Shown here in pieces: positions 9,330-16,649 of a stretch of DNA of 64,000 nucleotides. The notes beneath the pieces are model-generated. The model was not told the origin of the DNA, made no database searches, and worked only from the letters and a program-made list of their open reading frames with translations. The translations under genes were made by a program, and so were the position numbers. Every line of letters begins with the position of its first letter. Position 1 is the first letter of the stretch. The stretch spans positions 2,893,365 through 2,957,364 of the forward strand of contig NZ_MWQN01000001.1 of the NCBI RefSeq assembly GCF_002024165.1. The letters are read 5' to 3'. The stretch is from Embleya scabrispora. GTDB lineage: Bacteria; Actinomycetota; Actinomycetes; Streptomycetales; Streptomycetaceae.

Positions 9330-9403
9330 GCCCCGATAGCTCAGTTGGCCAGAGCACGCGCCTTGTAAGCGCGGGGTCGTCGGTTCGAACCCGACTCGGG
9401 GCT
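9330..9403 (+). tRNA. tRNA-Thr (anticodon TGT)
   Basis: A complete cloverleaf can be drawn: acceptor stem GCCCCGA/TCGGGGC, a D arm with AGCTCAGTTGG, an anticodon stem CGCGC/GCGCG with loop CTTGTAA giving anticodon TGT (threonine, ACA codons), and a T arm GTCGG-TTCGAAC-CCGAC. The 3' CCA is not encoded: after the discriminator T the sequence reads CCCAGG. Confidence 0.93.
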
Positions 9404-10576: not shown

Positions 10577-10751
10577 ACATTTCGGGCGAAGCCGACTGCT
10601 GACAGATCACGTGCGCCCGGGTACGGTGAAGCGCAGTCCGTCCTCGAATGGACTAGACCACTGTCCGCCGTCACGGACAGGCACCGCACGGGTACTTCAC
10701 CCTCCACTCGGATCGTCCGGCACGTTCCTGCCGGTGGAAGGACACATCACC

Positions 10752-12541: not shown

Positions 12542-13840
12542 TCAGCCCAGCAGGCCGCCCAGGGGCTTGGTACCGCTGCCGTTGGACTTGGGGGAGCCAC
12601 CGGAGCCGCCGGTGTTCGAACCCGTCGAACCCGTCGAACCCGTCGAGCCCGTGGGGCCGGACGCGGCCGGGGCCGAGGCCGGAACCGGCTTCCTGTCCGT
12701 GGCGTCGGCCGGGGTGGATTTGGCCGTGCCGGCGCGGGCGCTCGGCTGCGGGGTGGTCGCCGCGCGCGGGGTGGTCTGCGCGGCGGTGCCCTCCTTGACC
12801 GGACCGGCCGCCGCCGAGGGTTCGACCACCGGCGGTCGGGGCTGACCGGGCACCGCGCCGGCCGGCTGTCCGGCGGCGGGGGCGACCGGGGCCGAGGATC
12901 CGGCGGGCCGACCCGGCTCGCCGATCCGGCCGGTGTCCGACTCGTCGGGGTGCCGGTGGCCGCCGCCGAGCAGTGAGCCCGCGAGCAGCGTCGCGCCGAC
13001 TCCGGCGAACGCCAGCATCGAGCCGTAGCCGAGCTTGCGCCGCCGGGCCCGGACGGGGGTGACGATGGGACCGCGCCAGGTCCGCAGCGACAACCACGCG
13101 TCCGCCGAGTACATCGGCGCGCCCGCGAGGGCCAGCGGGCTGAACGCCGCCAGGAAGACCAGGTAGGGCGCGTGGTACGGCGAGGAGCCGGTGCCCACCG
13201 CGATCAGCACGCCCAGCGAGAGCAACATCCCGAGCAGTCCGGCCAGCCGGGTCCACAACCCGAGCACCACCGCGAAGCCGACCACCACTTGGCCGAAGGC
13301 GAACAACAGGCCCGCCCCGATCGCGTGGTCGGCGGCCAGGTCCATCACCGACGGCGACAGACTCCCGTCACGCAGCACGCCGATGCGATGCCCGAACGAG
13401 TCGCTCGACCCCGGATCCAGGAAGCCCGGCGCGTAGAGCTTGCGCAGCCCCTCGACCAGGAACGCCCCGCCCAGGAACAGCCGCAACGGCAACAACACGG
13501 TGCCGGCCTGCACACTCCCTCGGCGCGCATGCGTGGCCGCCGCGACGGTCCCGTCCCGCTCACGCACATCCGTCCCCGGACCGCGCCGGGCAGGCGCCAC
13601 GCGCCGCCGGGACCCGTCGTCACGAATCACCGGGAGCCGCGTGGTCGCGTCGTCGTCCGCCCGGTCACGCGGCCCGGGCACAGGTTTGGGGGCGGTGCCG
13701 ATCCGGGGGCCGGCGATCACCACCCGCAGGGTCTTCGTGGGGGTGGCGACCGCCGCCGGATCGCCGGGATCACGCACCGCCGCGGGCGAGGGCAACAGCC
13801 CGACAGCACCGCCGAAGCTGCCTTCCGATCTGGTGTCCAC
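12542..13840 (-). CDS. DoxX family membrane protein with long disordered tails
   Basis: This 432-residue protein has a DoxX-type membrane core at about 110-260 (LLPLRLFLGGAFLVEGLRKLYAPGFLDP, then three further helices) and one more helix at about 285-305. The first 105 residues are charged and Arg/Pro-rich; the last 120 are Pro/Ala/Thr-rich and end in Thr-Gly-Ser triplets encoded by 9-bp repeats around 12615-12650. DoxX proteins are linked to membrane redox balance in actinobacteria, but the reaction is not established. The start is GTG. The unusual repeat-filled region lies immediately upstream. Confidence 0.75.
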   Translation of the reverse strand: MDTRSEGSFGGAVGLLPSPAAVRDPGDPAAVATPTKTLRVVIAGPRIGTAPKPVPGPRDRADDDATTRLPVIRDDGSRRRVAPARRGPGTDVRERDGTVAAATHARRGSVQAGTVLLPLRLFLGGAFLVEGLRKLYAPGFLDPGSSDSFGHRIGVLRDGSLSPSVMDLAADHAIGAGLLFAFGQVVVGFAVVLGLWTRLAGLLGMLLSLGVLIAVGTGSSPYHAPYLVFLAAFSPLALAGAPMYSADAWLSLRTWRGPIVTPVRARRRKLGYGSMLAFAGVGATLLAGSLLGGGHRHPDESDTGRIGEPGRPAGSSAPVAPAAGQPAGAVPGQPRPPVVEPSAAAGPVKEGTAAQTTPRAATTPQPSARAGTAKSTPADATDRKPVPASAPAASGPTGSTGSTGSTGSNTGGSGGSPKSNGSGTKPLGGLLG

Positions 13841-14084
13841 GAACCACTAACCGCCCAAGCCCCCCCAAGGATGCGGCCCACCACGTAATACCCCATGCAA
13901 CCCACAAACCCCCAAACCTCCCGCTACACTCCGCCCCGCACCCCAACACGGCAACGCAAGCGGGAAGCCCACAACCCCCCGAAACACAGACCTCCCACCA
14001 AAACAACCACGCTGCCCAACACAACCTCCGACCACCGGCAGCGGCGCAAGAGAACACTCGAACCGACCCCACCGGCAAGCCTCT

Positions 14085-14720
14085 TCGAGCGGGCCGGGCG
14101 TTTTCGGCAGGCGTTGCGCCTGGGTCGGGCGGGCCGGTCCGGGGCTGGTCCGAGTCGATGGCGGGCCACCGCCGGCGCTCGGAGCTCCGAGCCCCGGGAC
14201 TCTCGACGAGACGCGCGTATGGCTCGGCGAAAACCGGCCGGCAGCGGCGGGCGCTCGGGTCGAGTCCCCCGGGGAGGCTTCCCGAGTGGGCCGGGCGTTT
14301 CCGCCGGACGTGGCGTTTGTGGCTGCGGGCCGGCCGGTCCGGGGCTGGTCCGAGTCGATGGCGGGCCACCGCCGGCGCTCGGAGCTCCGAGCCCCGGGGC
14401 TCTCGACGAGACGCGCGTATGGCTCGGCGAAAACCGGCCGGCAGCGGCGGGCGGGGAGGGCGCTCGGGTCGAGTCCTCCGAGGAGGCTTCCCGAGTGGGC
14501 CGGGCGTTTGCGGCGGACGTGGCGTTTGTGGCTGCGGGCCGGCCGGTCCGGGGCTGGTCCGAGTCGGTGATGGGCCGCCGCCGGCGTTCGGGGCTCCAAG
14601 CCCCAGGGCTTTCCGCGAGACGCGCGTATGGCTCGGCGAAAACCGGCCGGCAGCGGCGGGCGAGGAGGGCGCTCGGGTCGAGTCCCCCGGGGAGGCTTCC
14701 CGAGTGGGCCGGGGCGCTTC
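14085..14720 (+). repeat. Direct repeat block, three copies of a 200-209-bp unit
   Basis: Units begin with GGCCGGTCCGGGGCTGGTCC at 14132, 14332 and 14541; a partial unit lies upstream from about 14085 and the third is cut at about 14720. Copies one and two are almost identical over their first 130 bases. Length differences come from a GGGAGG-type insertion. Each unit carries a 16-bp palindrome or derivative (GCTCGGAGCTCCGAGC in the first two), the segment TATGGCTCGGCGAAAACCGG, and a two-level hairpin CTCGGG...CCCGAG enclosing CCTCC/GGAGG or a variant. No target-site duplication or transposase is seen. Confidence 0.9.
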
Positions 14721-15079
14721 GAGGGTGTTTGGAGAGGAGTACGGGCTCGAAACCGGATCGCGATGGGTGGTTGTGGGCTTCGAGCTTCGGTGACCTGCGG
14801 TTTTGTGGGGGCGGGGTGAAAAGTCGGGCGTCGAGTGCCGGTTTCGTGCGCACCCACCCCCTCAGCGCCCGTGGGGAGACCGAAATCGCCATGTCGGGGT
14901 CGGCTTGGAGCGCTGTGACCTCGCATAGGCCGTCGAGGAGACGGAAAGTGCCCAGCGGGAGTCGAAACCGGATCCCGAGGCACCCGAAACCGCCGCCGCT
15001 GGCGCTGACCTGCGGTTTTCTCTCACGTTGAGGCTCCGGCACCCCACGCAATCCGGCTTCGCAACCCTTCGTCATCCAC

Positions 15080-15545
15080 ATGCCACCGCCCGCCGGAAAC
15101 GCCCGACCCACTCAGGAAGCCTCCCCGGGGGACTCGACCCGAGCGCTCTCCCTGCCCCCCGTTGCCAGCCGGTTTTCGCCGAGCAACACGCCCGTCTCGC
15201 CGGGACCGATGTCTCGGAGCCCCGAACGCCGGCGGCGGCCCATCATCGACTCGGACCAGCCCCGGACCGGCCGGCCGCAGCCACACACGCACCGCCCACC
15301 GCAAACGCCCGACCCACCCGGGAAGCCTCCTCGGAGGACTCGACCCGAGCGCCCTCCCCGCCCGCCGCTGCCGGCCGGTTTTCACCGAGCGATGCAGCCG
15401 TCTCGCAGAGAGGACCGAGCCTCGGAGCCCCGAACGTCGGCGGCGGGCCACCATCGACTCGGACAGACCCCGGACCGGCCGGCCGCAGCCACAAGCGCAG
15501 CGCTCGCCGAAAACAGCCGGCCCACTCGGGGAGGGGCCAGTGGGC
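15080..15545 (-). repeat. Inverted copies of the same ~200-bp unit
   Basis: The same unit occurs in reverse orientation. One copy ends with GGACCGGCC at 15272 and a second 208 bp later at 15480. A shortened third remnant, with AAACAGCCGG, runs to about 15545. Copies here are more diverged than the direct ones, yet the hairpin segment (15111-15143 and 15317-15349) and the GGTTTTCGCCGAGC-like segment remain recognisable. With the direct block this forms a very large imperfect palindrome. Confidence 0.88.
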
Positions 15546-15593
15546 CCGGCCCGGGCGGCCTCGAGCGCTCGTCTCGGTCGGCTGGTTCCCTGC

Positions 15594-16574
15594 CTACTTC
15601 GCTCCCCGCCTCCGGGCCACCTCGTAGAGCACGATGCTTGCCGCCACGCCCGCGTTCAGGGACTCGTTGCCGCCGGCCATCGGGATTCGGACCGTGATGT
15701 CGCACGTTTCCTGGACCAACCGGCCCAGGCCCTTGCCCTCGGAGCCGACGACCACCACCAGGGGGTCCGTGGCCGCGGCCAGTTCGTCCAGGGTGATGTC
15801 GCCGTCGGCGGCCAGGCCGACCACGGTCAGGCCGGCCTTCTTGTACGCCTCGAGGGCTCGGGTGAGGTTGGCTGCTCGGGCCACCGGCATGCGGGAGGCC
15901 GCGCCTGCCGAGGACTTCCAGGCGCCGGCGGTCATGCCGGCCGCGCGGCGCTCGGGGACGACCACGCCGTGGCCGCCGAAGGCCGCCGCGGAGCGGATCA
16001 CCGCGCCGAGGTTGCGCGGGTCGGTGACGCTGTCGAGCGCGACGACGAGGGGCGTTTCGGCGCGGTCGTGCGCCTCCACCACGAGGTCGTCCGGGTGGGC
16101 GTACTCGTACGGCGGCATCTGGAGCACCAGGCCCTGGTGGATCGCGCCGTCGGTCATCCGGTCCAGCTCGGGACGCGGGATCTCCATCAGCGGGATGCCC
16201 CGCGTGTTGGCGATCTTCATCGCCTCGCGCACCCGGTCGTCGCTGTCGATGTACTGCGCGATGAACAGCGACGTCGCCGGCGCGTCGGCGCGCAGCACCT
16301 CGAGCACCGAGTTGCGGCCCGCGACCAGCTCCGACGCGCTCTTGCCGCCGCGTCCGGGACGCCCGCCCGCGGGACGCCTGGCCGCGGGCGCGGCGGCCTT
16401 GCGCTTGGCCGCGGCGTTGGCGGCGCGCTGCTTCGCGTGCCCCTTGCGCATCTCCGCGGGCGGTGTCGGCCCCTTGCCCTTCAGCGCCCGGCGGCTGTGC
16501 CCACCAGTACCGACCGAGGGCCCCTTCTTGCTTCCCTCGTTGCGCTTGTTACGGCGCTCCGTGTTGCCGGCCAT
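15594..16574 (-). CDS. rlmB: 23S rRNA (guanosine-2'-O-)-methyltransferase, TrmH/RlmB family
   Basis: This 326-residue SPOUT methyltransferase uses SAM to methylate the 2'-OH of a guanosine in 23S rRNA. A Lys/Arg-rich tail fills residues 1-80. The substrate-binding domain starts at LVAGRNSVLEVL, followed by the knotted domain with motif 1 LDSVTDPRNLGAVIRSA, motif 2 VVVGSEGKGLGRLV and motif 3 IPMAGGNESLNAGVAASIVLYE. The order cysS-rlmB is conserved in actinomycetes. The guanosine 2251 target is inferred from the family. The basic N-terminal tail is longer than in E. coli and typical of Streptomyces. Confidence 0.9.
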   Translation of the reverse strand: MAGNTERRNKRNEGSKKGPSVGTGGHSRRALKGKGPTPPAEMRKGHAKQRAANAAAKRKAAAPAARRPAGGRPGRGGKSASELVAGRNSVLEVLRADAPATSLFIAQYIDSDDRVREAMKIANTRGIPLMEIPRPELDRMTDGAIHQGLVLQMPPYEYAHPDDLVVEAHDRAETPLVVALDSVTDPRNLGAVIRSAAAFGGHGVVVPERRAAGMTAGAWKSSAGAASRMPVARAANLTRALEAYKKAGLTVVGLAADGDITLDELAAATDPLVVVVGSEGKGLGRLVQETCDITVRIPMAGGNESLNAGVAASIVLYEVARRRGAK

Positions 16575-16649
16575 GACGGGTACATCCCTTCGATTGCTTC
16601 ACGTTGCGATCCCCGGTCGCCCGAGGGGCAACCGCTCCAGCCGTTACAA

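Follow-up and report, generated by a model that had tools for sequence, protein, structure and literature searches.

Long inverted arrays of tandem units around a conserved core form a dispersed family in Embleya scabrispora

The window analysed here, a 64,000-nt stretch of the Embleya scabrispora genome (assembly GCF_002024165.1, contig NZ_MWQN01000001.1), contains a repeat array flanked by a DoxD/DoxX-domain gene and an rlmB-like gene. A sequence-only reading had described an imperfect palindrome of ~200-bp repeats at this place, and the array is indeed found there. Three direct units lie in a 209-nt register (spacing 200 and 209) and face inverted copies of the same unit that are spaced 206-208. 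The locus is composed of the following features, given in window positions.

12542-13840, minus strand: neighbouring gene with a DoxD/DoxX domain
13924-13939, plus strand: candidate left copy of a diverged ~16-bp target-site duplication, judged by eye against the single copy in Embleya genome G002
13940-15593: whole segment, present here; the orthologous site in G002 has a few tens of bases instead
14036-14124, plus strand: outermost left partial unit, degenerate (unit positions ~116-207; nhmmer, L039 5401-5489)
14131-14321, plus strand: left-arm unit most distant from the core
14329-14530, plus strand: middle unit of the left arm
14538-14731, plus strand: left-arm unit adjoining the core, stopping at unit position ~182-199
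14711-15084, plus strand: core of ~374 bp with weak dyad symmetry and two copies of GACCTGCGGTTTT
15082-15279, minus strand: right-arm unit adjoining the core
15283-15487, minus strand: second unit of the right arm
15490-15587, minus strand: outermost right partial unit, degenerate
15594-15609, plus strand: candidate right copy of the ~16-bp duplication, at the 3' end of the rlmB-like gene, judged by eye
15594-16574, minus strand: neighbouring rlmB-like gene for a SpoU-type rRNA methyltransferase

The limits first given for the array, 14085-15545, are too narrow, as degenerate partial units reach ~14036 and ~15587. Orthology with relatives breaks off near 13939 and picks up again near 15594. 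The longest inverted arms span 225 nt at 84% complementarity and the best 64 nt at 97%, while a 22-nt block of the unit matches five times in the window (three on the plus, two on the minus strand) versus 0.01 matches expected from shuffles. At this locus, E. hyalina carries a shortened version that has lost the core. Rfam matches near the array are an msiK RNA at ~10692-10749 (plus strand; L039 2057-2114) and a tRNA at ~9330-9403 (plus strand; L039 695-768).

The array is non-coding as far as tested, in line with the initial view that it holds no gene. Three long ORFs run across it without a Pfam match, and a coding reading was rejected on these ORFs and on a unit length of ~208, which is not a multiple of three. 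CRISPR had likewise been dismissed, rightly so, given contiguous units of ~208 bp where a CRISPR array would have short, nearly identical repeats separated by unique spacers. Structured non-coding RNAs, an earlier suggestion, are very improbable. Multiple copies and conserved blocks would suit a family of RNAs. With RNAalifold, applied to both strands of 60 of the 174 units and of 38 cores and to 12 column-shuffled alignments of each, consensus energies fall below every shuffle for the reverse unit (-19.1), the forward core (-17.8), and the reverse core (-13.3), with the forward unit (-14.7) inside its shuffle range. However, for alignments of 208-454 columns such energies are very small, the covariation terms are unfavourable in all four cases (+0.7 to +1.3), and Rfam returns no match to the array in window positions 13500-16600 even at a permissive threshold (E up to 5). 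The low energies might reflect leftover inverted-repeat complementarity.

What had appeared as a ~360-bp spacer between the arms is a conserved core of ~374 bp present at about 45 places, and the presumed single array is one of ~45 copies. The unit had been proposed as a query against the same genome, and this search of 10.96 Mb yielded 138 matches; the core search found about 40 copies and four more later (L129-L132). An interspersed element without a name, one of the original options, is thus borne out by about 45 dispersed copies (44 loci and a second element in L069). Alignments were built from 38 of 43 core matches and 174 of 225 unit matches that passed length filters. Throughout the family, the layout is units on the plus strand, core, and units on the minus strand, so that tandem ~208-bp units point inward from both sides. 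This holds for 250 of 251 unit matches at the 44 loci (E below 1e-3 and at most 2300 bp from a core; the neighbouring element's matches are excluded in L068 and for the most part in L069); the sole exception belongs to the second element of L069, in its right arm. Both arms are present in 42 of the 44 loci, with up to 7 unit matches per arm. Element lengths range from 587 to 3082 bp (median 1502), and the core itself forms a weak palindrome.

Gene context was derived with a simple codon-score gene caller, setting aside calls that overlap an element by at least 30% (one, in the L047 insert) and leaving out L134, which repeats L067 and had been counted twice. By these calls the elements lie between genes, with L064 overlapping its neighbour by 18 bp. 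Flanking genes are convergent at 13 loci, divergent at 6, and on the same strand at 23, with one side uncalled at 2. Compared with control gaps (36/58/122), convergence is weakly enriched (p = 0.05) and divergence weakly reduced (p = 0.12). Two elements, L130 (C1:841000-848500) and L131 (C1:4256500-4263500), are located directly downstream of the 5S rRNA of rRNA operons.

The same layout recurs in E. hyalina NBRC 13850 (G001), where at least ten copies occupy the same loci as copies in this genome (G000). Among 20 distinct E. hyalina loci examined, 12 were searched in this genome, of which 10 match and 2 are absent; E. hyalina holds further copies. Flanks at the ten shared loci are 88-98% identical, three of them compared on one flank only. 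A tree on 681 bp of the rlmB region groups this genome and E. hyalina as sisters (support 0.993) and leaves G002 and the third Embleya genome G003 outside, in a poorly supported order (0.646). Because of the copy number here and the shared layout and loci in a separately deposited genome, it is very unlikely that the window repeats arose by chance or as an assembly artefact. N gaps inside several E. hyalina elements and contigs that end in elements would be expected of an artefact, to which we nevertheless assign a practically negligible probability, as layout and loci agree between the two separate deposits. The gaps lie inside or beside L102, L104, L107-L109, L111, L114, L116, and L120, and several contigs end in elements; since both coincide with elements, the family may limit Embleya assemblies.

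While positions are conserved between the species, sequences are not. Core identity is 75.8-79.2% at seven of the nine shared loci with alignable cores, compared with a mean of 75.0% (sd 3.4) over all cross-species core pairs (54 cores kept from 63 loci, seven of nine shared loci used). Cores at shared loci thus differ by ~22%, whereas divergence at four-fold sites of genes flanking the window copy is 10.2% in the rlmB-like gene, 5.5% in cysS, and 8.6% in the DoxD gene. Consequently, judged by this flank (5.5-10%), the copies evolve at several times the rate of the sequence around them. The true counterpart core ranks 15th, 9th, 7th, 13th, 3rd, 15th, and 2nd of 39, better than the middle, and therefore a weak orthology signal survives and the rewriting is incomplete.

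Comparison of units locates most of this exchange inside single elements. Adjacent units of one arm are 83.7% identical, units farther apart in the same arm 79.4%, units of opposite arms 80.6%, and units of different elements 75.9%; since units are more alike within than between elements, exchange occurs mostly inside one element. Moreover, left and right units of equal rank exceed off-rank pairs by 0.033 over all ranks and by 0.047 from rank 2 outward, differences that were each reached in 0 of 5000 permutations (21 elements with at least two full units in both arms; L068 and L069 left out). The innermost pairs taken alone show no mirror effect (0.793 versus 0.801 off-rank). Left and right arm sizes correlate at 0.47, and at two of the nine shared loci the core lies flipped with respect to the flanking sequence, one of these E. 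hyalina cores being partial. Mirror-wise likeness of the arms together with core flips is what hairpin or arm-to-arm exchange would produce; arm homogenisation and spacer inversion are among the outcomes reported for template switching in inverted repeats in the accessible text of PMC8604942. The idea that the array is kept or repeatedly homogenised gains support from the within-element likeness, the mirror-rank effect, and the retained positions.

Exchange between loci is suggested by sequence likeness in two cases: two E. hyalina cores are 95.8% identical over 497 bp, and L035 and L038 share 92% identity over 820 bp. Because L114, the near-identical core in E. hyalina, lies at a contig end common to contigs 57 and 58, that case may stem from assembly.

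Other Streptomycetaceae had been named as a further place to search, and with a profile of the unit, matches were obtained there within Embleya but not beyond it. The unit profile matches three of 150 family genomes, all Embleya (one of 17 genera). G003 shows a single unit match at a contig end, and further copies may be lost among its 1650 contigs. G002 gives no match genome-wide with the unit profile and is empty at three element loci, without detectable remnant. The place of the L059 element, ~1.7 kb here, is taken in G002 by ~3.4 kb of different sequence (L153, G002 C116:45000-50000). BLAST of 61 genomes returned, besides this genome, G001, and G003, short matches in seven genomes of other genera (23-61 bp of 818, E 1e-6 to 8e-4), which we take as chance; the unit profile, whose stricter filters lose weak matches, scores in none of those seven that it also covered. 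Similarly, a 20-bp core pattern finds 16 stretches in a contig database. E. hyalina supplies 11 of them; the other 5, which come from four Bacteroidales and one Sinorhizobium, are again taken as chance. Among 50,697 phage and 72,556 plasmid records no relative matches at E 0.01. In IMG/VR, one viral contig carries an exact 19-bp core-pattern match (L160, 3998-4016), and the 22-bp unit pattern matches no contig. In the genomes searched, short weak matches aside, the family is thus restricted to Embleya.

Within the element, conservation is clustered. The longest run of columns at ≥90% spans 17 columns versus at most 14 in 1000 shuffles, and the conserved blocks are GACCTGCGGTTTT and AAACCGGATC in the core and GAAAACCGGC in the unit. 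Exact copies of GACCTGCGGTTTT number 58 in this genome, elements and half-elements accounting for 55 of them, and the reversed control has no match. Five of the 58 lie outside known loci in four regions, two with half-elements and two (three matches) without. The inward strand is G- and T-rich (GC skew +0.23), and 62% of 174 units carry a G-quadruplex-type run, compared with 30% (at most 37%) in 30 dinucleotide-shuffled sets.

The clustered conservation may reflect binding by a past mobiliser or a host protein, and it fits a site in use as well as it fits a decaying element. Host-used DNA sites are a possible though rather unlikely explanation. On this view, the elements would be arrays bound by a protein for chromosome organisation, segregation, replication forks, or a transcription barrier, and selection would maintain them at their ~45 positions. 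Invariant blocks clustered across copies diverged by ~25%, the near confinement of GACCTGCGGTTTT to elements, positions kept while sequence changes, the strand bias and quadruplex-type runs above shuffles, and the placement between genes all argue for it. The protein itself remains putative, however, half and degenerate copies are tolerated, and G002 does without the element both at the three loci and genome-wide. Density is also very uneven, with 28 copies on C1 (7.0 Mb), 13 on C2 (1.25 Mb), 3 on C3 (1.13 Mb), and 1 on C4 (0.97 Mb); the other large contigs carrying elements are probably a secondary replicon. The accessible part of the Embleya genome paper reports that chromosome-like parS sites were not found on the secondary chromosome (PMC13152386), and the family could be a putative binding-site system in a genus with such a replicon. 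The extended proposal of a new class of chromosome-organising locus, in which bipolar arrays and a dyad core at ~45 places would be bound by a lineage-specific protein, held by selection, and rewritten by hairpin exchange, is unlikely.

The origin of the copies can be approached from their ends and empty sites. At the window site, G002 has one rlmB-stop sequence, while here similar 16-bp sequences lie on both sides of the element. This suggests that the window copy is an old insertion with a target duplication, in one case judged by eye, and the earlier statement that target duplications are absent has become uncertain on account of this diverged candidate. Nothing clear was seen by eye at two other empty sites. 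Outer ends fall within 10 positions of a unit boundary in 49 of 120 cases and are otherwise scattered. For E. hyalina L102, the corresponding site here (L128) keeps a core remnant (27.5 bits, E 5e-10) and therefore represents loss in this genome rather than recent insertion, the one clear case of an element lost with a remnant left behind. For L103, the site here (L127) holds no element, only a trace (2.2 bits, E 0.13) that is too faint to be counted, and a gain in E. hyalina is possible.

These sites bear on a family of non-autonomous transposons that is still active and moved by a transposase elsewhere in the genome, which we regard as quite unlikely. The suggestive duplication at the window site, the foldback layout, and a possible recent gain at L103 agree with ongoing movement, but the ends are ragged and the core remnant at L128 marks a loss. 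Furthermore, near-identical E. hyalina copies sit at positions occupied in this genome, and therefore exchange explains them better. No transposase was seen in the element pieces examined. As an autonomous partner we considered 2.3 kb of 99.3% identity beside two elements, which turned out to be rRNA operons. Gene-sized inserts occur in or beside the core of L047 (7490-9243; single-copy in this genome) and L105 (4574-5756), their ORFs giving no significant Pfam or NCBIfam match (one Pfam match below the cut-off, E 0.23).

With moderate confidence, we favour the reading that the window copy belongs to a long, non-coding, foldback-type interspersed family in Embleya that is mostly fixed in place. 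Its architecture, copy number, restriction to Embleya among the genomes searched (short weak matches aside), shared positions with diverged sequence, mirror-wise arm similarity, occasional core inversion, and, in one clear case, loss with a remnant are directly observed. The family would have spread before the two Embleya species split, presumably as a non-autonomous element that depended for its movement on machinery that did not come to light in this analysis. Since the split, template switching in hairpins or cruciforms, with one arm of a copy serving as template for the other, may have rewritten copies where they stand; tandem units may in addition have exchanged unequally, and sequence may now and then have passed from one locus to another. 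The conserved blocks of the core (GACCTGCGGTTTT and AAACCGGATC) and of the unit (GAAAACCGGC) would be putative binding sites of the past mobiliser or of a host protein. Counted against the foldback reading are the ragged ends, the one duplication judged by eye, the lack of a mirror effect in the innermost pairs, the residual orthology, and the lack of a visible transposase or autonomous partner in the pieces examined. As long inverted repeats are expected to be unstable according to the accessible text of PMC8604942, it is surprising that a bacterial family of ~45 giant non-coding near-palindromes persists at shared positions in two species. The family thereby offers a natural experiment on how palindromes are tolerated, arms homogenised, and cores inverted.

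Bacterial interspersed repeats such as REP/REPIN, Correia, BOX, and RUP, as well as MITEs, measure tens to a few hundred base pairs and have simple ends. BOX and RUP are treated as small interspersed repeats in the accessible portion of PMC3049150. Like these, the Embleya elements are intergenic, non-coding, present in tens of copies, and found in few species; they differ by their length of 0.6-3.1 kb and their compound tandem arms. In particular, instead of the short, simple terminal inverted repeats and target duplications of MITEs, they have long compound arms and no common terminus. Minisatellite and VNTR arrays consist of head-to-tail units that vary in copy number. The Embleya units share this trait but form two opposed arrays facing a conserved core at about 45 loci.

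In eukaryotes, foldback elements whose arms are compound tandem arrays have been described. In Tetris of Drosophila virilis, the inverted arms consist of tandem ~220-bp units in variable number around a non-coding middle, as given in the accessible text of PMC4079207. Both elements, to the extent of that description, have long inverted repeats of tandem units, a middle without apparent coding capacity, and rearranged or partial copies. The Embleya element, in contrast, resides in a bacterial host, lacks the flanking terminal domain, the sharp termini, and demonstrated 8-10-bp target duplications of Tetris, and contains a conserved core where Tetris has a variable middle. The Galileo F subfamily of Drosophila mojavensis carries ~210-bp tandem repeats in long terminal inverted repeats and, in the sections of PMC3573991 available, likewise shows independent arm growth and chimeric copies; its 7-bp target duplications and the transposase-coding sequence of Galileo were not found here. 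The similar unit length in Tetris, Galileo F, and Embleya may be coincidence. Our literature search, of incomplete coverage, returned no bacterial foldback element with compound tandem arms. In the accessible text of the Embleya genome paper (PMC13152386) these repeats are not mentioned, its 'repeat' passages concerning telomeric inverted repeats and assembly and the string 'palindrom' being absent from the main text. Given the ragged ends (120 outer ends scattered, where foldback elements have defined termini) and a target duplication that is no more than a candidate, we do not claim foldback membership. With its inverted repeats built of internal tandem repeats, its central domain in the form of the ~374-bp core, and its dispersal at many loci, the Embleya element nonetheless resembles the eukaryotic foldback elements in architecture.
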